Below, piece by piece: positions 21,219 through 31,842 of a stretch of DNA of 48,927 bases. Both the position numbers and the translations under genes were made by a program. Source of the DNA: Actinomycetes bacterium (GTDB lineage Bacteria; Actinomycetota; Acidimicrobiia; Acidimicrobiales; Acidimicrobiaceae). Under the pieces are notes generated by a model. The model was not told the DNA's origin and searched no databases. It saw only the letters and a list, made by a program, of their open reading frames with translations. Position 1 is the stretch's first letter. The number at the start of each line of letters is the position of its first letter. Location: the NCBI GenBank assembly GCA_021786375.1, contig JAJYNL010000057.1, forward strand, positions 1 to 48,927. The letters are read 5' to 3'.

Positions 21219-24152
21219 ATGCTGAAGAAATCCGACGAGGGGCTGGGCCGCAGGCTTCTGAAACTGCGCGCCGAGGCCGAATCGCGCGGGGAGACCTTCT
21301 ATCAGGGCCCTTCTAAGGGGGCATTAATGGCTTTCCCGCCCATCGAGCGATGGGACGACTGGGAGGAGCTTGACTCAAAGGCGTGGCCCGAAAGGCGCAA
21401 ACGTAGCTACACGCTCATCCCCACCACCTGCTTCAACTGTGAGTCCGCGTGCGGCCTTCTTGCCTACGTGGACAACGAGACCGGAGCGGTGCGTAAGTTC
21501 GAGGGCAACCCGATCCATCCCGGCTCGCGCGGACGCAACTGCGCCAAGGGGCCGGCGACCTTGAACCAGATTCAGGACCCTGATCGCATCCTCTACCCGC
21601 TCAAGCGGGTGGGGGAGCGCGGAAGCGGCAAGTGGGTCAGGGTGAGCTGGGACGAGGCGCTGGACGATCTTGCCGCACGTATACGCACGGCCATCCAGGA
21701 AGGTCGCACCGACGAGGTCATGTGCCACATCGGGCGTCCGGGCGAAGACGGCTTCACTGAGCGGGTTCTCGCCTCCTGGGGTGTTGACGGGCATAATTCG
21801 CACACCAACGTCTGCTCCTCGGGTGGGCGCGCCGGCTGGCACTACTGGGCGGGAATCGACCGCCCCAGCGCCGACTACGCAAACGCAAAGGTGATAGTGC
21901 TGATCTCGGCGCACTTGGAGACGGGACACTACTTCAACCCACACGCGCAGCGCATCACCGAGGCCCGGGCCAAGGGCGCCAAACTCATCGTGATGGATAC
22001 CCGGCTCTCCAACACCGCCACGCATGCCGACTACTGGCTTTCTCCTCAACCGGGCAGCGAGGCGGCCATCAACCTCGCGATCGCAAACCACATCATCGCC
22101 ACCGGCCGTTACAACCGGGAGTTCATAAGGCGGTGGTGGAACTGGGAACAGTACATGCGTGAGGCTCGGGGAGTGGCCGATCCCACCTTCGAAGCCTTCG
22201 AGGAGGTGCTCCGCGACCTGTACGCGGAGTTCACCTTCGACTACGCGTCGGCCGAGTCCGGGGTGGACGCTTGGGTCCTTGCCGAAGTTGCCGAGGTCGT
22301 CGCGGGCGCGGGCACAGCCCTGGCGGCCCACACCTGGCGCTCCGCCAGCGCGGGCAACCTGGGGGGTTGGCAGGTTTCGCGAACGCTGCTACTGCTCAAT
22401 GCGCTGCTCGGGGCGATCGCCACGCCGGGCGGGACATTCCCCAACGCCTGGAACAAGTGGGTTCCGAGGCCAATGCACATGCCACCACACCCGACCAAGT
22501 GGAACGAGCTGTCCTGGCCGATCGAGTACCCGTTGGCGATGAACGAGCTTTCCTTCCTCTTGCCCCACCTGCTCAAGGATGGGCGGGGCAAGCTCGATGT
22601 CTATTTCACGCGGGTCTACAACCCGGTTTGGACCAATCCGGACGGCATGAGTTGGGTGGAGGTCCTGCGTAACCAGGCCATGGTCGGATGCTACGTCTCG
22701 CTCACCCCAACCTGGAACGAGACGGCCTACTTCGCCGATTACGTGCTGCCGATGGGCCACTCATCCGAACGCCACGACCTTATGTCCTATGAGCAGTACG
22801 ACGGCCAGTGGATCTCGTTCCGCCAGCCGGTAATGCGTGCCAAGGCGCTTGCCGAGGGTAAGGAGGTCATCGATACCCGGGAGGTAAACCCGGGCGAGGT
22901 GTGGGAGGAGAACGAGTTCTGGATGGAGCTTTCCTGGCGTATCGATCCTGATGGATCGATGGGGATCAGGAAGTTTTACGAGTCCCCCGTGGATCCCGGC
23001 AGACGCATGAGCGTCGATGAGTATTACGCCTACATCTTTGAGAACTCGGTTCCGGGCCTTCCCGAGGCGGCGGCAGCCGAAGGGCTGACTCCGCTCGAGT
23101 ACATGCGCAAGCGGGGAGCGTTCGAGATTGCACGTAACGTTGGCAAGGTTTACGAGCAGCCGCTTGAGGCCGAGGAGATCGACGGCGCCTTCATCGATGC
23201 GGTCACAAGGCGGGTTTACTCGCCCACTCCCAAGCCCGCCGCAAAGAACATCGTCCCAACGGGCGACCCTGACCCCGACGGCGAGGGGCGGCGCCCGGTT
23301 GGCGTCAACGTGGACGGCGAGCTATTTAAAGGCTTTCCCACCCCGAGCGGCAAGCTGGAGTTCTACTCTTCCACGCTCGCCTCGTGGGGTTGGCCCGAGC
23401 ATGCCATTCCCGGCTACATCAAGAGCCATGTGCACCCGGAGAACATGGATCCCGACCAGTTGGTGCTGATCAGCACTTTCCGTCTGCCCGTACAGATCCA
23501 TACCCGAAGCGCCAACTCCAAATGGCTGGACGAGATCGCCCACACCAATCCCCTTTGGATCCACCCTCAGGATGCGGAGCGCCTTGGGATAGACGCCAAC
23601 TCCATGGTCAGGGTGGAAACCGAGATCGGCTACTTCGTGGTGAAGCCCTGGATCACCGAGGGGATCCGCCCGGGTGTGGTCGCCTGTTCCCACCACATGG
23701 GCCGCTGGAAGCTGCAGGGCCACGGCCAACGGCAGCTCATGCGTACTGTGGAGCTGAACAACGAGGAAACCCGCTGGCATCTCGAGCCCAAAGAGCCTGT
23801 CAAGCCCTATGCGAGCGAGGACCCTGACACCCAGCGCATATGGTGGGGCGACGTAGGTGTCCACCAGAACCTGACCTTCCCGGTCCACCCTGACCCTATA
23901 TCGGGGATGCACTGCTGGCACCAGGCGGTTCGAATAACCAAGGCGGCCTCCGACGACCTGCACGGCGAGGTCTACGTCGATACGGCTCGCTCCCGTGAGG
24001 CCTACAAACGTTGGCTGGAGATAACCCGCAGCGCCTACGGGGTCTCTCCCAACGGCACCAGACGCCCTCGCTGGCTGATGCGGCCCTTGAAGCCCTCCGT
24101 GCAAGCCTTCGCCCTGCCTGCGCGCAACGAAGAGGAGGCGGCACGGCCATGA
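21219..24152 (+). CDS. Molybdopterin oxidoreductase catalytic subunit (CISM family, substrate unknown)
   Basis: The 977-residue protein is a Mo/W-bisPGD enzyme of the DMSO reductase superfamily. It has an N-terminal [4Fe-4S] site at Cys71, Cys74, Cys78 and Cys108 (CFNCESACG...NCAKG), then the molybdopterin domain. The probable metal ligand is Cys199 in HTNVCSSGG, pointing to the thiosulfate/polysulfide/arsenate reductase and sulfite dehydrogenase side rather than Ser-ligated DMSO reductases. A molydopterin-binding C-terminal domain ends the chain. The N-terminus has no Tat signal (GRRLLKL is not followed by a hydrophobic stretch), so it should be cytoplasmic, as in SoeABC. Its gene overlaps the chaperone start by 4 nt. 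The substrate is not determinable from sequence alone. Confidence 0.9.
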   Translation: MLKKSDEGLGRRLLKLRAEAESRGETFYQGPSKGALMAFPPIERWDDWEELDSKAWPERRKRSYTLIPTTCFNCESACGLLAYVDNETGAVRKFEGNPIHPGSRGRNCAKGPATLNQIQDPDRILYPLKRVGERGSGKWVRVSWDEALDDLAARIRTAIQEGRTDEVMCHIGRPGEDGFTERVLASWGVDGHNSHTNVCSSGGRAGWHYWAGIDRPSADYANAKVIVLISAHLETGHYFNPHAQRITEARAKGAKLIVMDTRLSNTATHADYWLSPQPGSEAAINLAIANHIIATGRYNREFIRRWWNWEQYMREARGVADPTFEAFEEVLRDLYAEFTFDYASAESGVDAWVLAEVAEVVAGAGTALAAHTWRSASAGNLGGWQVSRTLLLLNALLGAIATPGGTFPNAWNKWVPRPMHMPPHPTKWNELSWPIEYPLAMNELSFLLPHLLKDGRGKLDVYFTRVYNPVWTNPDGMSWVEVLRNQAMVGCYVSLTPTWNETAYFADYVLPMGHSSERHDLMSYEQYDGQWISFRQPVMRAKALAEGKEVIDTREVNPGEVWEENEFWMELSWRIDPDGSMGIRKFYESPVDPGRRMSVDEYYAYIFENSVPGLPEAAAAEGLTPLEYMRKRGAFEIARNVGKVYEQPLEAEEIDGAFIDAVTRRVYSPTPKPAAKNIVPTGDPDPDGEGRRPVGVNVDGELFKGFPTPSGKLEFYSSTLASWGWPEHAIPGYIKSHVHPENMDPDQLVLISTFRLPVQIHTRSANSKWLDEIAHTNPLWIHPQDAERLGIDANSMVRVETEIGYFVVKPWITEGIRPGVVACSHHMGRWKLQGHGQRQLMRTVELNNEETRWHLEPKEPVKPYASEDPDTQRIWWGDVGVHQNLTFPVHPDPISGMHCWHQAVRITKAASDDLHGEVYVDTARSREAYKRWLEITRSAYGVSPNGTRRPRWLMRPLKPSVQAFALPARNEEEAARP

Positions 24153-25003
24153 GCATCGCGGGTGCGGACGAGCGCGCCCGCGCCGAGGTCCTGCGCGCCT
24201 GCTCCGAAGTGGTTGCCAACGCCGGGCTCCACTCTGAGATCCGGGGGCTGTTCGGGTTGGAGGGGTTTAGCCCGGCCGATCACACCGAGGTCTTTGCACT
24301 CGAGCTGCTTCCGGACGCCTGTGTTTACCTGAACCCCGGGGCGCAGCTCGGTGGGGAGCCCGCCGAGCGCGTCAGCGGCTTCCTGGTGGCTGCCGGATTG
24401 GAGCCGATACGGGAGGCGACATCGCTCGCCAACCAGTTGGTCATGATCGCCGACTTGATCGACCAGCTCCTCAAGGCGTCGGCCGGCAGCCAGGAGGCGG
24501 CGGCTTTGGAGAAGGTTCTGGCGGTGCTGCTTTTCGAACACGTCCTGCCCTGGGCGCCCGCGTATGCGACGGCGACGACGCGTCTGGAGCCTCGCCTCTC
24601 CGCTTGGGCCGGTGCATTGGTCGGGACACTGGCCGAGTTGGCCGCATGGCTGGAGCTGCAGAACTGGGAGATGACACCGTCGGTTCTAGGTGGGAGGAGC
24701 AAGGCTGCCGAGGACGCCTCGGACTTTGCGGCGATGGCGGCCTCACCGTTCCTCTGTGGGACCTTTCTGACCAAGCGCATACTCTTCGAACGTGCTTACG
24801 ACGCCGGGTTGGCTCCTCGCATCGGTTCACGGAAGTTCATAATCGCATCACTTCTTGAGCAGTCCCCCGCGGCAGCCGCGGTGGTGCTGCGCGAGGAGGC
24901 GGAGTTTCAGGCTGAGCGCTGGACGGAGCTTGCCTTCGCCTTCGGGGTGCCGCTCGCCTCTTGGGCCGACAGTGCGGCGGCCTTCTCGGCTTCTCTCGCG
25001 TAG
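24149..25003 (+). CDS. TorD/DmsD-family molybdoenzyme assembly chaperone
   Basis: The 284-residue protein is all-helical and Ala/Leu/Glu-rich. It overlaps the catalytic subunit gene by ATGA, and GAGGAGG lies upstream. Size, helical makeup and operon place match TorD/NarJ-like chaperones, which hold the apo-catalytic subunit until cofactor is inserted. The region with LLFEHVLPWAPAYA resembles the family's E-H-x-x-x-W-x-P motif, which supports the call. Because the catalytic subunit lacks a Tat signal, the chaperone would act in cofactor insertion rather than export proofreading. Confidence 0.82.
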   Translation: MSIAGADERARAEVLRACSEVVANAGLHSEIRGLFGLEGFSPADHTEVFALELLPDACVYLNPGAQLGGEPAERVSGFLVAAGLEPIREATSLANQLVMIADLIDQLLKASAGSQEAAALEKVLAVLLFEHVLPWAPAYATATTRLEPRLSAWAGALVGTLAELAAWLELQNWEMTPSVLGGRSKAAEDASDFAAMAASPFLCGTFLTKRILFERAYDAGLAPRIGSRKFIIASLLEQSPAAAAVVLREEAEFQAERWTELAFAFGVPLASWADSAAAFSASLA

Positions 25004-25071: not shown

Positions 25072-25752
25072 CTATTGCCTTGGGAGCGCCTTCTCTCCGA
25101 CGAGGATTGTCTTGATCTCGGCCTCGGAGTCCTCGGTGACCAGCGCAACCACCTCGTCGCCATCGTGGAGCATGGTGTTCCCGCGTGGCACGATCACGTT
25201 GTCCTGACGGATTATCGCCACGATGGACGCGGTTTTGGGCAGCCCGAGTTGCGCGATTTCGAGACTGTTGGCGGGGGAGTCCTCCGCCAGGGTTACCTCC
25301 ACCAGCCGGGCACCGCTCTTCTCGAAGGAGAGCAGGCGAACCAGGGTTCCAACCGAGACCGCCTCTTCGACCAGCGAGGAGAGCAGGTGGGGGGTTGAGA
25401 CCGAGACATCCACGCCCCAGGTCTTGTTGAAGAGCCAATGGTTCTTGGGGTTGTTCACCCTTGCGACCACGCGTGGGACCATGAATTCCTGCTTGGCCAG
25501 TAGCGAGACGACGAGGTTGTCCTCGTCGTCACCCGTGGCGGCCACCACCACGTCGGCATCCGCAAGGCCGGCCTGCTGCAGGGAGGAGACCTCGCATGCG
25601 TCGGCTACGAGGAAGCGGCAGGGAATTTGCTCGGCGAGCTTTTTCACTTCCTGCTCGTTCTGCTCGATGACCAGCACGTCGTGCCCTGCGGCCTGCAGAT
25701 CTTCCGCGATGAAGGAGCCGACGCTCCCGGCTCCGGCAATTACAACCTTCAT
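25072..25752 (-). CDS. TrkA-family potassium uptake regulatory subunit (CeoC-like)
   Basis: The 226-residue protein has a TrkA-N (RCK) Rossmann domain starting MKVVIAGAGSVGSFIAE, with the GxGxxG nucleotide loop, acidic residues ending beta 2 (VIEQNE) and VVVAATGDDEDN. A TrkA-C domain follows (about 145-215, with PRGNTMLHDGDEVVALV). Such subunits gate K+ channels in response to NAD(H) or ATP. It overlaps the preceding TrkA gene by 4 nt. Two adjacent TrkA genes next to an APC permease is the mycobacterial CeoB/CeoC arrangement. No TrkH/TrkG channel is in the window. Confidence 0.9.
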   Translation of the reverse strand: MKVVIAGAGSVGSFIAEDLQAAGHDVLVIEQNEQEVKKLAEQIPCRFLVADACEVSSLQQAGLADADVVVAATGDDEDNLVVSLLAKQEFMVPRVVARVNNPKNHWLFNKTWGVDVSVSTPHLLSSLVEEAVSVGTLVRLLSFEKSGARLVEVTLAEDSPANSLEIAQLGLPKTASIVAIIRQDNVIVPRGNTMLHDGDEVVALVTEDSEAEIKTILVGEKALPRQ

Positions 25753-26411
25753 GGCCGATTCTCCTTGCCGCCAAGCACGCTGTCCAATGCAACCATGGCG
25801 CTCCGTTCGACCATGAAGTGCATGACGTCGCCCTCCTGGGCGACGATGTCAGCTTGGAAGAGGCGCGTGCTGGTGCCTCGGGTGAGAAGCACGGGCTTCA
25901 CACCGCTGATCTCGTCCAGGCGGCCTAGCCGTTTGCCCAGGAGGTGCTGGGGCACCGTCTTTTCGACAAGGACCACACTGCCGTTCGGGTCGATCCAGTC
26001 GGGTTGGCTGGCCGAGTCAAAGATGCGGCGCATGGCTTGGTCCGTCGTCCAGGTGACAGTGGCGACCGTCTGGATGCCCAGCCTGCGGTAGATCTCCGCC
26101 CGGCGCGGATCGTAGATGCGCGCCACCACTTTTGGGACCCCGTAGACGTCGCGCGCAATCCTGGCGGTGAGGATGTTGGAGTTGTCCCCGCTGGTCACCG
26201 CGGCAAGAGCGCCGGCTGAACCGATATCCGCCATTTCCAGGTGTTGGCGGTCGAATCCCAGCCCGCTGATGGCCCTTCCTGAGAACTTTTCGCCGAGTCT
26301 ACGAAAAGCTGAGGCATTCTTGTCGATGATCACAACTGAATGTCCCTCGACCGAGAGGCGAGTAGCCAGTTCGGAGCCAACCCGCCCGCACCCGACGACG
26401 ATTATATGCAC
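25749..26411 (-). CDS. TrkA-family potassium uptake regulatory subunit (CeoB-like)
   Basis: The 220-residue protein has a TrkA-N domain (VHIIVVGCGRVGSELA, VVIIDKN, AVTSGDNSN) and a C-terminal TrkA-C domain. GTG 26411 is chosen because AGGTGG lies six nt upstream and the fold starts right there; longer frames add an unrelated N-terminus. Its last codons overlap the start of the second TrkA, so both are translationally coupled. It is divergent from the KimA-like transporter gene across 137 nt, which suggests shared control of potassium uptake. Confidence 0.9.
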   Translation of the reverse strand: MHIIVVGCGRVGSELATRLSVEGHSVVIIDKNASAFRRLGEKFSGRAISGLGFDRQHLEMADIGSAGALAAVTSGDNSNILTARIARDVYGVPKVVARIYDPRRAEIYRRLGIQTVATVTWTTDQAMRRIFDSASQPDWIDPNGSVVLVEKTVPQHLLGKRLGRLDEISGVKPVLLTRGTSTRLFQADIVAQEGDVMHFMVERSAMVALDSVLGGKENRP

Positions 26412-26548: not shown

Positions 26549-28966
26549 TTGAACGACAGCGCTGCCGAGAACGGGGCAGCCTTAGAGCAGGAACAGGCGG
26601 GCACCAGGGTTGACGGCGCTGCGAGGTTCAGTGGTGCCAAAGGCCATGGTGGACGTCCGGAGGCGATGGCCCTACTGGGGTCGTACGACCTGCCTGAGAC
26701 GCGTAGCTACCGTCTAAAGAACTTCCTTCTTGGAAAACCCCTTGTCAACGAGCAGATGAAGGGCGAGCGACTAGGCAAGCCCACCGCCCTCGCCGTGCTC
26801 TCCTCCGACGTCATATCGTCCAGTGCCTACGCCACCGAGCAGATTCTGACCGTGCTGGTGCCGGTGGTCGGCTTGGCCGCCTTCTCGCTGGTGCTCCCGG
26901 TCAGTGTCCTGATCCTGGTCGTCCTGGCTGCGGTCGCCGCGTCCTACTTCCAGGTCGTGAAGGCCTACCCCAAGGCCGGCGGTGCGTATATCGTGGCGCG
27001 TGACAACTTCGGCCCCAAGATCGCCCAGATCGCCGCAGTCGCGATCATGATTGACTACACGGTGACGGTGGCAATCTCCGTCGCGGCCGGTGTCGACGCA
27101 ATCTCCTCGGCTGTACCGGCCTTGGCGCCGTACAATCTCGATCTGTCCATCGTCTTCGTGGTGCTGCTCGCCTACGGAAATCTGCGCGGCGTGCGTGAAG
27201 CAGGACGCATCTTCGCTCTGCCGGCCTATTTCTTTATGGTCAACATGGCCATCATGCTTGGCCTGGGCATCTATAGGGCGTTGACTCACCAACTTCACTA
27301 TCTTCCGTCCCACGTCCACGGTGCCCTGACCCTCGGCCACGCCGGATCGGGCTTATTGCTGGGTGCTTCGCTTTTCATCTTCCTGCAGGCCTTCGCCAAC
27401 GGCGGCACTGCGCTGACCGGCATCGAGGCCGTCTCTACCGGAATCTCGATCTTTAGAGCCCCACAGTGGAAGAACGCTCGTATCGTCCTAGTGGCCATGG
27501 CGACGATCCTGGGACTTCTCTTCTTCGGCCTCTCCTTCCTCGCCTCCCACATCCATCCGATTCCGCGTGTGAGCGGCACCCCGACCGTTATATCCATGAT
27601 CGGCCAGACCGTGTACGGGCAGAGTCTCCTGGGCAAGGTCTTCTACTACCTGCTGCAGACATCCACCTATTTCATCCTCATATTCGCCGCAAACACCAGC
27701 TTCAATGGCTTCCCCTTCCTGGTCTCCTTCGCTGCTGAGGACTCTTTCCTTCCTCGGCAGCTGGCTCGGCGCGGCCATCGCCTGGCGTTGTCGAACGGCA
27801 TCATCCTCCTTACGGTGGTCTCGGAGCTGATCCTGATCGCCACCCGGGCCAGGGTCTCGGCACTCGTGGCGCTGTACGCCATCGGCGTTTTCACCGGCTT
27901 TACCATGGCCAGCGGTGGGATGCTGAAGCATCATCTGAGGCTCCGTGAGCCCGGGTACCGCCGCGGCTTTGCTGTGAACCTGCTTGCCACCATTCTCTCC
28001 GCCATCGTCGTGGTCGTCTTCCTGGTCACGAAGTTCAAGGAGGGGGCTTGGGCGGTGCTCGCGGCCGGCATACCGCTCGTCTTCCTCTTCATCCGTCTCA
28101 ACCGCCGTTATGTCGCAGAGGAGGCGGAGCTGGAGCAGGGCGTTGCCAGGGCCTGCGAGGCGCCGGTGCTGCGCAGGCACAAGGTGATCCTCTTCGTCGA
28201 GAACCTCGACCTGGCAACTGCGCGTGCAATCCAATACGCACGCACCCTCACCCCGGACGAGATCCGTGCGGTTCACATTGAGATCGACGCGAAACAGGCG
28301 CGAGTGCTCGAGCAGGAGTGGTCGCGGCTTGGGGTGCGCCACCTCGACCTGGAAGTCGTCGAGTGCACCGACCGTCGGATTCGCAGGGCGGCCTTGGACG
28401 TGGTCGCCGAGGCGGCGCTGCCGGGCGACTCCGAGGTGACGGTGCTCCTGCCCAGGCGCGTATACCCCGGTTTCATGCAGCGAATCCTCCACGACCGAAC
28501 TGCCGATGCGATGGCAAAGGTGCTGTCGCAGCTACCACACGTGAACGCGACCATCATCCCCTTCGAGGTGGTGTTCGGGGGCACTGACAAGGTCATCTTC
28601 GAAACTCGCCCGAAGTTTCCCGGAGAGAGGGAGGCGGCCCTTCCAGCGCACGAGACGGAGGCCTTTGGCACGCGACTCCTGGAAGGCGCTGTTCCGATCG
28701 GGAACGTGGCATATCGTCGCCCGGCCAAGGTGGCCGGGCGTGTACGGTCGGTGCGCGTCCAACCCATGGATTCGGTTCCGTCGCTGGCGGTGCGCCTGGA
28801 GGACGGAACTGGCGGCATCCTCCTCGTCTTTGCGGGCAAGCGCCAGGTCCCGGGCATCGAGCCGGGCCGCCGTATGACCGCCGAGGGTACGGTGGGCGAA
28901 ATTGAGGGCCACATCGCCATGATGAACCCGACCTATGAGTTCGCGCCGGTCGAGGACGACGACTAG
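26549..28966 (+). CDS. KimA-like APC-superfamily potassium transporter with fused C-terminal OB-fold
   Basis: The 805-residue membrane protein has about 12 transmembrane helices (roughly 70-530). The lead-in LLGKPL and LAVLSSDVISSSAYATEQIL, then YPKAGGAYIVARDNFG, match the KimA (YdaO) K+ importers and their actinobacterial relatives such as Rv2690c. A soluble Rossmann/USP-like part follows (about 540-700). Residues about 721-800 form an OB-fold with VRLEDGTGGILLVFAG and QVPGIEPGRRM...MNPTYEF; in other actinobacteria this domain is a separate small protein in the same CeoB/CeoC locus (Rv2694c type). TTG start has GGAGG 9 nt upstream, and TATAGT at 26508-26513 may be its -10. Substrate as K+ is inferred from homology and the two TrkA neighbours. 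Confidence 0.87.
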   Translation: MNDSAAENGAALEQEQAGTRVDGAARFSGAKGHGGRPEAMALLGSYDLPETRSYRLKNFLLGKPLVNEQMKGERLGKPTALAVLSSDVISSSAYATEQILTVLVPVVGLAAFSLVLPVSVLILVVLAAVAASYFQVVKAYPKAGGAYIVARDNFGPKIAQIAAVAIMIDYTVTVAISVAAGVDAISSAVPALAPYNLDLSIVFVVLLAYGNLRGVREAGRIFALPAYFFMVNMAIMLGLGIYRALTHQLHYLPSHVHGALTLGHAGSGLLLGASLFIFLQAFANGGTALTGIEAVSTGISIFRAPQWKNARIVLVAMATILGLLFFGLSFLASHIHPIPRVSGTPTVISMIGQTVYGQSLLGKVFYYLLQTSTYFILIFAANTSFNGFPFLVSFAAEDSFLPRQLARRGHRLALSNGIILLTVVSELILIATRARVSALVALYAIGVFTGFTMASGGMLKHHLRLREPGYRRGFAVNLLATILSAIVVVVFLVTKFKEGAWAVLAAGIPLVFLFIRLNRRYVAEEAELEQGVARACEAPVLRRHKVILFVENLDLATARAIQYARTLTPDEIRAVHIEIDAKQARVLEQEWSRLGVRHLDLEVVECTDRRIRRAALDVVAEAALPGDSEVTVLLPRRVYPGFMQRILHDRTADAMAKVLSQLPHVNATIIPFEVVFGGTDKVIFETRPKFPGEREAALPAHETEAFGTRLLEGAVPIGNVAYRRPAKVAGRVRSVRVQPMDSVPSLAVRLEDGTGGILLVFAGKRQVPGIEPGRRMTAEGTVGEIEGHIAMMNPTYEFAPVEDDD

Positions 28967-29109: not shown

Positions 29110-31842
29110 ATGGCGAAACCACTTGTCATAGTCGAGTCACCGGCAAAGGCGAAGACGATCTCCAAGTTTCTCGGATCCGGGTACATGGTCGAGTCCTCGA
29201 TTGGTCACATCCGTGACCTGCCTACCAGCGCCTCCGAAATTCCGGCCGCTCTCAAGAAGGAGAAGTGGGCCCGCCTAGGTGTCGACGTGGATAACGGCTT
29301 CAAGCCGCTGTACGTTGTCAGCGACAAGAAGCGTGCCCAGGTCAAGCGATTGAAGGACCTCGTTCGTGAAGCCAGTGAGCTCTATCTGGCGACAGACGAG
29401 GACCGCGAAGGCGAATCGATCGCATGGCATCTCGTCCAGGTGCTGGCGCCACGGGTGCCGGTGCGCAGGATGGTCTTTCACGAGATTACCGAATCCGCCA
29501 TAAACGAGGCCATCGAGCACACGCGCTCGATAGACGCCGATCTGGTAAGCGCCCAGGAGGCGCGCCGAATCCTCGATCGGCTGTATGGCTACGAAGTTTC
29601 TCCGGTTCTGTGGAAGAAGGTGAAGCCGGCCCTATCGGCGGGACGTGTCCAGAGCGTGGCGACACGTATCCTGGTGCAGCGCGAACGCGAGCGCATGAGC
29701 TTCTCCAGCGCCTCTTACTACTCGGTTCAAGCCGTCGGTGCCAAGCAGCGCTCCTCGTTCGAAGCCAGTCTGACGGCTTTGGACGGCGCGCGGGTAGCGG
29801 CCGGCCGTGACTTTGCCGCCGATGGCCACTTGGACCGGGCAAGGCTGAATAACGCCAAGGTGGTCGTGCTCGATGAGCGCTCCGCACAGGCGGTCGCCGA
29901 TACCCTGCGCTCCGGGACCCTCCATGTCGAGGCGGTCGAACAGAAGCCTTATCGGCGCTCCCCCGCTCCTCCTTTCAGGACCTCCACCTTGCAGCAGGAG
30001 GCCGGGCGCAAGCTCCGGTTCTCTTCCAAGAGGACCATGGCCGCGGCGCAGCGGCTTTACGAAGCGGGCCACATCACCTACATGAGGACCGACTCGACTT
30101 ACCTTGCCGAGGCGGCGGTGGCACAGGCGAGGTCGATCATCTCCAATACGTTTGGGCCTGAGTTCATGCCAAAGGCCGCCCGCAACTATCGCAATTCTGT
30201 CAAGAATGCCCAGGAGGCCCACGAGGCGATCCGCCCGGCCGGCGATCGCTGGGCCTCCCCTGCGGAAATTTCCAGGGCGGTCGGCTCGGACGAGGCCAAG
30301 CTTTACGACCTGATCTGGAAGCGCACCATTGCCTCTCAGATGACCGACGCCACCGGCACCTCGGTTTCTGTGCGTTTCTCCGCCCCGCTTGGCCTGAGCA
30401 GCCCGGTGGGGAGTCCTGAGGGCGAGGTCCTCACCCCGGAGACGGCCTACCTCGCGGCATCCGGCACCACCATCGCGCATCCCGGCTTCCTCCGGGTTTA
30501 TGTGGAGGACACGGATGACGGTGACGACTCCGGCGACGAGCGCGACGCCATTCTCCCCTCGTTTTCCGAGGGGGAGACCGTGGAAATATCCGAGGTAACG
30601 GCCGCCGGACACACCACTACGCCGCCGCCGCGCTTCACCGAGGCGTCCTTGGTGAAGGCGTTGGAAGAGCTTGGTGTGGGTAGGCCTAGCACCTATGCCA
30701 GCATCATCTCGACCATCCAGGATCGCGGGTATGTCTTCAAGCGGGGAACGGCGCTGGTCCCCTCTTTCGTGGCCTTCGCCGTCGTCTCTCTTCTCGAGCA
30801 GTATTTCGGCTCGCTGGTCGACTACAACTTCACCGCGGAGCTCGAGGACCGGCTGGATAAGATCGCCAATGGCGAGGAACCGGCGGTCCCGTACCTGGAG
30901 CAGTTCTACTTCGGCAATCACGCTCCGGGCTTGAAGGGCCTGGTGGAGAGCCAGCTGGAGGAGATTGATCCTAGGGCCATCAACACCCTTCCCCTCGGGA
31001 CCGGCCCGGACGGCAGCGAGTGCGTAATCAGGGTGGGCCGTTACGGGCCCTTTATCCAAATGGGTGAGCGTACCGCCCCGATTCCTGACGGGATCGCCCC
31101 TGACGAGCTGACCATGGACAGGGCACTGGAGCTGCTCGAGTCGGTACAGTCCGAGCGCTTCCTGGGCATTCACCCGGACCTCGAACAGCCCGTTTACGTC
31201 AAGGTCGGCCGCTTCGGCCCCTTCGTCCAGCTTGGCGACGCCGATACCATGCCGAAGGGGACCAAGCCGAAGACGGCGTCTCTCTTCTCGACGATGGCTC
31301 CACAGTCCATCACCCTTGAGCAAGCCGTCGAGCTGCTCTCCCTCCCGAGGGTGGTGGGAGTGGATCCCGAAGGCGGGCAGGAGGTGCTGGCAGCAAACGG
31401 CAAATTCGGCCCGTACATAAAGCGTGGTGCGACTTCAAGGAACTTGGAATCCGAGGAGAGGATCTTCTCGATAACCCTCTCCGAGGCCCTGGAGCTGTTG
31501 GCGACCCCGCAGGCCGGCCGAGGCCGTCGCAGCTCCACCTCGGTTGAGCTTGGCGTCGACCCCGATGGCCGCAAAGTGGTACTCCGCTCCGGCCGCTTCG
31601 GCCCCTACCTGAGCGATGGAGAGGTCAACTGCTCGGTGAAGCAGTTCGAGGTGGAGGAGGGTCTGAAGCTGGAGCGCGCGATCGAGCTCCTGGCCGAGAA
31701 GCGCGCAAGCACGCCCGAAGGGGTAGCAAAGGTGCCGCGCCGCAAGTTGGCCGGGACCACCACCCGGAAGACCGGTACCAGCGCCGCTACGAATAGAAGA
31801 ACCGGCAAGGCGTCGTCCGCTCGAAAGAGCAATGCCGACTGA
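29110..31842 (+). CDS. topA: DNA topoisomerase I
   Basis: The 910-residue type IA topoisomerase relaxes negative supercoils. The TOPRIM domain starts PLVIVESPAKAKTI, with TDEDREGESIAWH, and active-site Tyr324 is in TYMRTDST. The C-terminus carries several repeats of the form G-x-D-P-x-G...GRFGPY, seen near 31010-31650, then a Lys/Arg/Thr-rich tail. This C-terminal layout is common in actinobacteria. The last 11 nt overlap the tmk start, so topA, tmk and holB form one transcriptional unit. Confidence 0.97.
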   Translation: MAKPLVIVESPAKAKTISKFLGSGYMVESSIGHIRDLPTSASEIPAALKKEKWARLGVDVDNGFKPLYVVSDKKRAQVKRLKDLVREASELYLATDEDREGESIAWHLVQVLAPRVPVRRMVFHEITESAINEAIEHTRSIDADLVSAQEARRILDRLYGYEVSPVLWKKVKPALSAGRVQSVATRILVQRERERMSFSSASYYSVQAVGAKQRSSFEASLTALDGARVAAGRDFAADGHLDRARLNNAKVVVLDERSAQAVADTLRSGTLHVEAVEQKPYRRSPAPPFRTSTLQQEAGRKLRFSSKRTMAAAQRLYEAGHITYMRTDSTYLAEAAVAQARSIISNTFGPEFMPKAARNYRNSVKNAQEAHEAIRPAGDRWASPAEISRAVGSDEAKLYDLIWKRTIASQMTDATGTSVSVRFSAPLGLSSPVGSPEGEVLTPETAYLAASGTTIAHPGFLRVYVEDTDDGDDSGDERDAILPSFSEGETVEISEVTAAGHTTTPPPRFTEASLVKALEELGVGRPSTYASIISTIQDRGYVFKRGTALVPSFVAFAVVSLLEQYFGSLVDYNFTAELEDRLDKIANGEEPAVPYLEQFYFGNHAPGLKGLVESQLEEIDPRAINTLPLGTGPDGSECVIRVGRYGPFIQMGERTAPIPDGIAPDELTMDRALELLESVQSERFLGIHPDLEQPVYVKVGRFGPFVQLGDADTMPKGTKPKTASLFSTMAPQSITLEQAVELLSLPRVVGVDPEGGQEVLAANGKFGPYIKRGATSRNLESEERIFSITLSEALELLATPQAGRGRRSSTSVELGVDPDGRKVVLRSGRFGPYLSDGEVNCSVKQFEVEEGLKLERAIELLAEKRASTPEGVAKVPRRKLAGTTTRKTGTSAATNRRTGKASSARKSNAD

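Follow-up and report, generated by a model that had tools for sequence, protein, structure and literature searches.

The nearest described relative of the transporter considered here is KimA of Bacillus subtilis, a K+/H+ symporter of the KUP family with several solved structures (PDB 6s3k, 8b70, 8b71). Its K+-coordinating residues and the residues of its c-di-AMP pocket have been named, the pocket being poorly conserved among KUPs generally (PMC10284832). In the TrkAH and KtrAB systems, regulators with TrkA_N and TrkA_C domains serve an SKT channel. The mycobacterial "Trk system" has been described as two TrkA proteins only, and the available portions of these two sources name no membrane subunit for it (PMC13163235, PMC4553272). 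Deletion of ceoBC attenuates Mycobacterium tuberculosis (PMC12136442). As far as the accessible parts of the reports go, transposon mutants of ceoB and of the adjacent Rv2690c showed enhanced fitness in rifampicin in a M. tuberculosis screen (PMC12216072), rv2690c appears again in another paper (PMC10534295), and M. smegmatis evolved with rifampicin carried 11 mutations in the "OB-fold" gene MSMEI_2699 against one without the drug, second to rpoB, and four against none in trkB MSMEI_2701 (PMC10433840). The accessible parts of these three papers contain no link between the rifampicin phenotypes and a KimA-type transporter. A separate mycobacterial K+ channel, MchK, has the same rifampicin phenotype (PMC9025972). 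In Streptomyces, an OB-fold protein syntenic with trkA has been noted (PMC13118837). The neighbourhood of OB and trkA genes has thus already been noticed in part; we found no paper joining the OB-fold protein of this locus to KimA, and that link is new as far as we could find.

The window analyzed here is a stretch of 48,927 nucleotides, a contig of an Actinomycetes bacterium of the family Acidimicrobiaceae. It carries a KimA-type permease gene fused to an OB-fold domain, with a pair of TrkA genes divergent from it (Table 1). The true start of the KimA-OB protein is unsure because its N-terminal ~35 residues are poorly conserved among homologues. For TrkA2, comparison with a same-genus orthologue makes the GTG at 26411 a more likely start than 26501. 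The position of topA downstream of the fusion is a kept arrangement in the family of the window. Genes for a molybdopterin oxidoreductase and for a chaperone like NarJ (nitrate reductase delta) lie upstream of the TrkA pair (window 21219-25003).

Table 1. Features of the KimA-OB locus in the window
Feature	Position	Strand	Remarks
KimA-OB fusion protein, 805 aa	26549..28966	+	TTG start; possible alternative start at ATG codon 40, 26666
Transmembrane part, LeuT/APC-fold, KimA-type, residues 51-535	26699..28153	+	
Cytosolic domain, residues 541-690	28169..28618	+	Counterpart of the KimA c-di-AMP-binding domain
OB-fold domain, residues ~709-795	28673..28933	+	
TrkA2 (CeoB-like); TrkA_N, weak TrkA_C	25749..26411	-	Divergent from KimA-OB; extensible to 26501
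TrkA1 (CeoC-like); TrkA_N and TrkA_C	25072..25752	-	4-base overlap with the end of TrkA2
topA, DNA topoisomerase I	29110..31842	+	Downstream neighbour; context, outside the system

Residues 55-655 of the KimA-OB protein align to B. subtilis KimA (6s3k) with an E value of 6.5e-101. The residues D87, Y94, T290, and Y443 correspond to the K+-site residues D36, Y43, T230, and Y377 of B. subtilis and are conserved in 100% of the fused clade described below. Judged by its sequence, the gene is a KimA-type K+/H+ symporter, and proton-coupled K+ uptake is its predicted activity. On another contig (C27, ~21530-23340) the same genome encodes one more KimA-like permease, which is diverged, has neither OB nor TrkA pair, and sits on a long branch close to B. 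subtilis KimA in our tree. Many actinobacterial KimAs contain, between the transmembrane part and the cytosolic domain, a segment of ~150 residues that resembles a second, duplicated cytosolic domain (residues ~480-610 of KimA at locus L088, also at L083 and others).

Behind the cytosolic domain, which extends to ~690, a linker leads to the C-terminal domain; in fused proteins 26-72 residues separate the two profile ends. An earlier sequence-only reading had recognized an OB-fold here at residues ~721-800; the fold was identified correctly, and its boundaries have to be moved to ~709-795. The best Pfam hit was PF01336, "OB-fold nucleic acid binding", at E 2e-4 and under its curated cut-off, while phmmer matches of the tail to ubiquitin were judged to be spurious repeats. 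An AlphaFold2 model, built from a shallow alignment, gave an OB barrel with pLDDT 77, and structural comparison of this model retrieved OB structures at Z 10-12, with RPA-type domains and the RecG wedge (1gm5, Z 11.9) among the best and tRNA-synthetase OBs also among the matches. According to the model, the tail is a five-stranded OB barrel.

The sequence-only reading had also equated this domain with the small Rv2694c-type protein of actinobacterial ceoBC neighbourhoods and had proposed a profile search for the domain alone and in fusions. Comparison of the two forms revealed homology. In a single BLASTP comparison, the window OB was 35% identical to that of M. genavense over 72 residues (E 1e-13), and hhalign of the fused-OB profile against the mycobacterial OB profile gave a probability of 99.2 (E 1.8e-19). 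A query with a degenerate pattern connected the window OB to stand-alone OBs of named mycobacteria, with M. tuberculosis not among the hits. Both groups share the pattern DGT/S...GxRxxPGI.xGR...NPxYE. By these sequence criteria, the window OB is a fused variant of the Rv2694c-type family and not a plain member. Its conserved positions are R719 (nearly; 97/87%), G726, D748, G759, G765, G769, G776, N789, and P790; the polar or charged positions R719, D748, T/S750, R/K760, and N789 are invariant or nearly so.

Does this domain bind nucleic acids? It could be a nucleic-acid-binding regulator, acting for example on its own mRNA, so that its link to the transporter would pass through expression control and the fusion would tether it to the membrane. 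Such a role would be in accord with the PF01336 hit, with the RPA-type, RecG, and tRNA-synthetase structural matches, and with a slightly positive net charge (~+2.5), yet a whole clade has the domain fused to an integral membrane transporter, and the positions aligned to F204 and Y208 of the RecG wedge in 1gm5, which we take to have a junction-stacking role, are non-aromatic in the OB family. These non-aromatic positions argue against RecG-like junction binding and would still be compatible with single-strand or nucleotide binding. On balance we regard a regulator of this kind as very unlikely.

The fusion itself is real. Transmembrane part, cytosolic domain, and OB lie in one open frame throughout the genus and the family of the window and in several more families of its order, so chance or a sequencing artefact, the latter named in the sequence-only reading as what would undo it, was rejected as its source. 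A tree built from 125 KimA transmembrane regions groups the fused proteins into a single clade of 32 rows with an SH-aLRT support of 100. This clade also includes two loci (L035 and L040) in which the OB is encoded by an overlapping downstream cistron; at L040 the KimA and OB genes overlap at TGATG, and at L035 the frames overlap. Close outside the clade, at L057, KimA is followed after 2 bases by an OB gene of the same orientation. From these arrangements, the order of states looks like an OB gene beside the locus, then a downstream cistron, then fusion, and L035 and L040 are possible secondary splits of the fusion. At one locus (L048, 4796-9709), a single TrkA pair is accompanied by two KimA-OB fusion genes in tandem.

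At least a third of 78 Mycobacterium genomes encode a protein closely homologous to a KimA paralogue that ends in a divergent OB-like tail; its open frame is mostly ~780-850 residues long, and shorter paralogues without the tail occur alongside. One such Mycobacterium locus (L231) has a divergent OB (E 2e-6), yet its KimA groups within the fused clade, which points to lateral transfer. A separate fusion origin in Mycobacterium was set aside for the same reason. That the fusion is a local accident devoid of functional meaning is extremely improbable: it is mainly limited to one clade of one order, as an accident might be, but it stays in frame across several families, the paralogue is present in that third or more of the sampled Mycobacterium genomes, and the invariant OB positions are kept.

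In M. genavense the stand-alone OB gene lies in the order dUTPase - DUF3710 - hydrolase-like - OB - DUF3159 - TrkA1 - TrkA2 - KimA - TRAM/tRNA-methyltransferase. This matches the order of the segment Rv2697c to Rv2689c in M. tuberculosis H37Rv, and the Rv numbers used here rest on this synteny. From gene numbering and spacing, MSMEI_2699 would be the OB orthologue of the ceo locus, since it lies two loci from trkB as expected for the order OB-DUF3159-TrkA1. The gene of the DUF3159 membrane protein in M. genavense (L172, 7264-7932) overlaps the OB stop codon, and in mycobacteria DUF3159 possibly belongs to the system as an additional part. As a part of the window's system it was rejected, having no match in the window's own genome.

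If OB, KimA, and the TrkA pair belong together, then we can ask: How regularly do they travel together along different lineages? To answer this question we used a sample of 296 Actinomycetota genomes, of which 87 had a strong OB, 112 had KimA, and 84 had both. RecG-like hits, lying in frames of 700-800 residues, were removed from the OB count by an E value cut-off of ~1e-12 together with frame length, both chosen by inspection; one candidate OB locus (L109) was read as RecG and dropped. KimA was present in 84 of the 87 genomes with OB and in 28 of the 209 without it (Fisher 5.5e-45, a value that ignores kinship, is inflated by it, and is meant as descriptive). At the level of loci, which were chosen for OB or KimA and not for TrkA, a TrkA pair stood near KimA in 45 of 48 cases with a separate OB nearby, in 33 of 40 with a fused OB, and in 2 of 34 without OB. 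On the KimA tree, OB and the TrkA pair change the same way in ~8 independent pairs and the opposite way in none (median p 0.008; p 0.04 with the fused rows left out). Gains and losses of OB and the TrkA pair coincide. OB is placed differently from lineage to lineage, on the far side of TrkA1, immediately upstream of KimA, downstream of it, or fused to it, but stays with the locus. The proposal of the sequence-only reading that the stand-alone OB works with the permease therefore gains support from co-occurrence, from co-location in several gene orders, from overlapping cistrons, and from the fusion. This comparative evidence is strong, and on these sequence grounds KimA, OB, and the TrkA pair very probably make up one system.

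The TrkA pair deserves separate attention. TrkH was found neither in the window's own genome, which is 95% complete, nor in any of 26 genomes of its family, and the only strong TrkA_N pair of this genome is the one at the KimA-OB locus. The pair thus needs another partner, for which KimA-OB would be the obvious one. The tie to K+ control that had been read from the divergent TrkA pair is in fact stronger than first proposed, given the kept K+-site residues and the genome without TrkH. More broadly, TrkH is present in 19 of the 87 OB genomes (absent in 68) versus 155 of the 209 genomes without OB.

In those 19 genomes the TrkA pair could serve either transporter, and this touches a further explanation, by which the pair acts on a different K+ channel, KimA works with OB as a unit of two parts, and the locus is shared as a K+ regulon only. 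The rifampicin phenotype of MchK would fit it as well. Against it, the window genome and its family lack TrkH, 32 of 34 KimA paralogues without OB have no TrkA pair, and mutants of Rv2690c and ceoB have a common phenotype; we consider it unlikely. At one locus (L238, 8871-11402), OB stands with a TrkA pair in which TrkA2 is apparently broken into overlapping frames; its genome has TrkH and, at the cut-off used, no KimA, and the locus is possibly decaying.

The association between fusion and TrkA pair has exceptions. At seven fused KimA loci, a TrkA pair is missing from the surrounding 6 kb or from the examined sequence. Of 13 OB-KimA genomes searched for TrkA2, 12 have the gene, including genomes in which it lies apart from the fusion, and the other one (G260) gave no hit. 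The fusion may therefore work without the pair.

Such copies, the Mycobacterium KimA-OB paralogue among them, bear on the possibility that the OB is itself a sensor of a small ligand, a nucleotide, gating KimA directly, with the TrkA pair sensing in parallel on the same transporter. Nucleotides and short nucleic acids are ligands of OB-folds, and the domain has the invariant or nearly invariant polar and charged positions given above. The cytosolic domain also points this way, as its pocket is changed in nearly all of the fused clade, as though control by a ligand had been shifted or altered. In the window the altered pocket positions are F549, R637, D649, and R650, together with E524, where the transmembrane part ends; in KimA numbering V457E, P479F, F568R, N580D, and Q581R are changed, and R337, L461, and H579 of the c-di-AMP pocket are kept. 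Across the fused clade the changes are V457E (100%), F568R (97%), N580D (97%), and Q581R (75%), with R337 and H579 kept. Nevertheless, the OB showed none of the ligand-binding motifs of known sensor families, its closest folds are generic OBs, and a stand-alone sensor would not need the joint gain and loss of OB and TrkA pair. A direct nucleotide sensor thus seems rather doubtful.

DisA is encoded in the window's own genome, but the remodelled pocket makes c-di-AMP a less likely ligand of fused-clade KimA. The c-di-AMP signature of RCK_C domains, (I/L)(I/L)X2DXRX5N(I/L)(I/L), has been given in a study that also covers Vnz_27460, which by gene number adjoins the KimA-like Vnz_27465 (PMC10117811). 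The signature is absent in both window TrkA proteins, and a relaxed form is absent in all 346 TrkA ORFs of the examined loci, many of which are near-copies.

We therefore return to a single RCK-regulated K+-uptake system formed by KimA-OB and the TrkA pair, with the OB as a docking or gating subunit, and assign to this reading a probability of about 0.6. A K+/H+ symporter of KimA type would carry fused at its C-terminus an OB subunit that is separate in most Actinomycetota. TrkA1 and TrkA2, which are CeoC- and CeoB-like and have no TrkH to serve in this genome, would regulate the permease; that the pair acts on KimA is likely. By analogy with TrkA, their RCK domains would sense a nucleotide of the NAD(H)/ATP type. 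As a cytosolic docking or gating subunit, the OB would link the RCK proteins to the cytosolic dimer of KimA, a mainly docking role being slightly favoured, and the fusion would fix its stoichiometry and place. We infer here the physical contact, the direction of regulation, the ligand, and the binding of protein and not nucleic acid by the OB. At even odds, finally, we would place a previously unrecognized class of K+-uptake complex that is widespread among Actinomycetota, mycobacterial CeoBC included, and in which an RCK heteropair regulates an APC-fold KimA-type symporter, not TrkH or KtrB, through an OB subunit, the fusion being its one-chain form.

If Rv2690c, of KimA type, is the membrane subunit and Rv2694c, the OB, the third subunit, the gap left by the membrane subunit in the mycobacterial Trk system closes. 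It would then make sense that ceoB, Rv2690c, and the OB and trkB genes of M. smegmatis have screen phenotypes in common, and we would have a case of RCK proteins controlling an APC-fold symporter. This offers a testable answer to the question of which membrane pump mycobacterial CeoB and CeoC control.

Comparison with the known systems sets the locus apart in several respects. With B. subtilis KimA it has in common the alignment, the K+ site, and the cytosolic domain; it differs by the extra C-terminal OB, the remodelled c-di-AMP pocket, and the divergent TrkA pair, whereas the B. subtilis protein, 607 residues long, has no OB and groups in the tree with KimAs devoid of both OB and TrkA pair. 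With TrkAH and KtrAB it shares the TrkA_N/TrkA_C regulators, but its genome has no TrkH, its TrkA consists of two single-unit proteins, and the partner in place of the SKT channel would be an APC-fold symporter. The RecG wedge is the nearest named OB both in sequence (weak PF17191 hits) and in structure, but the window protein has no helicase and lacks the wedge aromatics. The Rv2694c-type OB of the mycobacterial ceoBC locus has the same fold, the shared pattern, and the same gene company, but is a stand-alone polypeptide, while in the window it is part of KimA.
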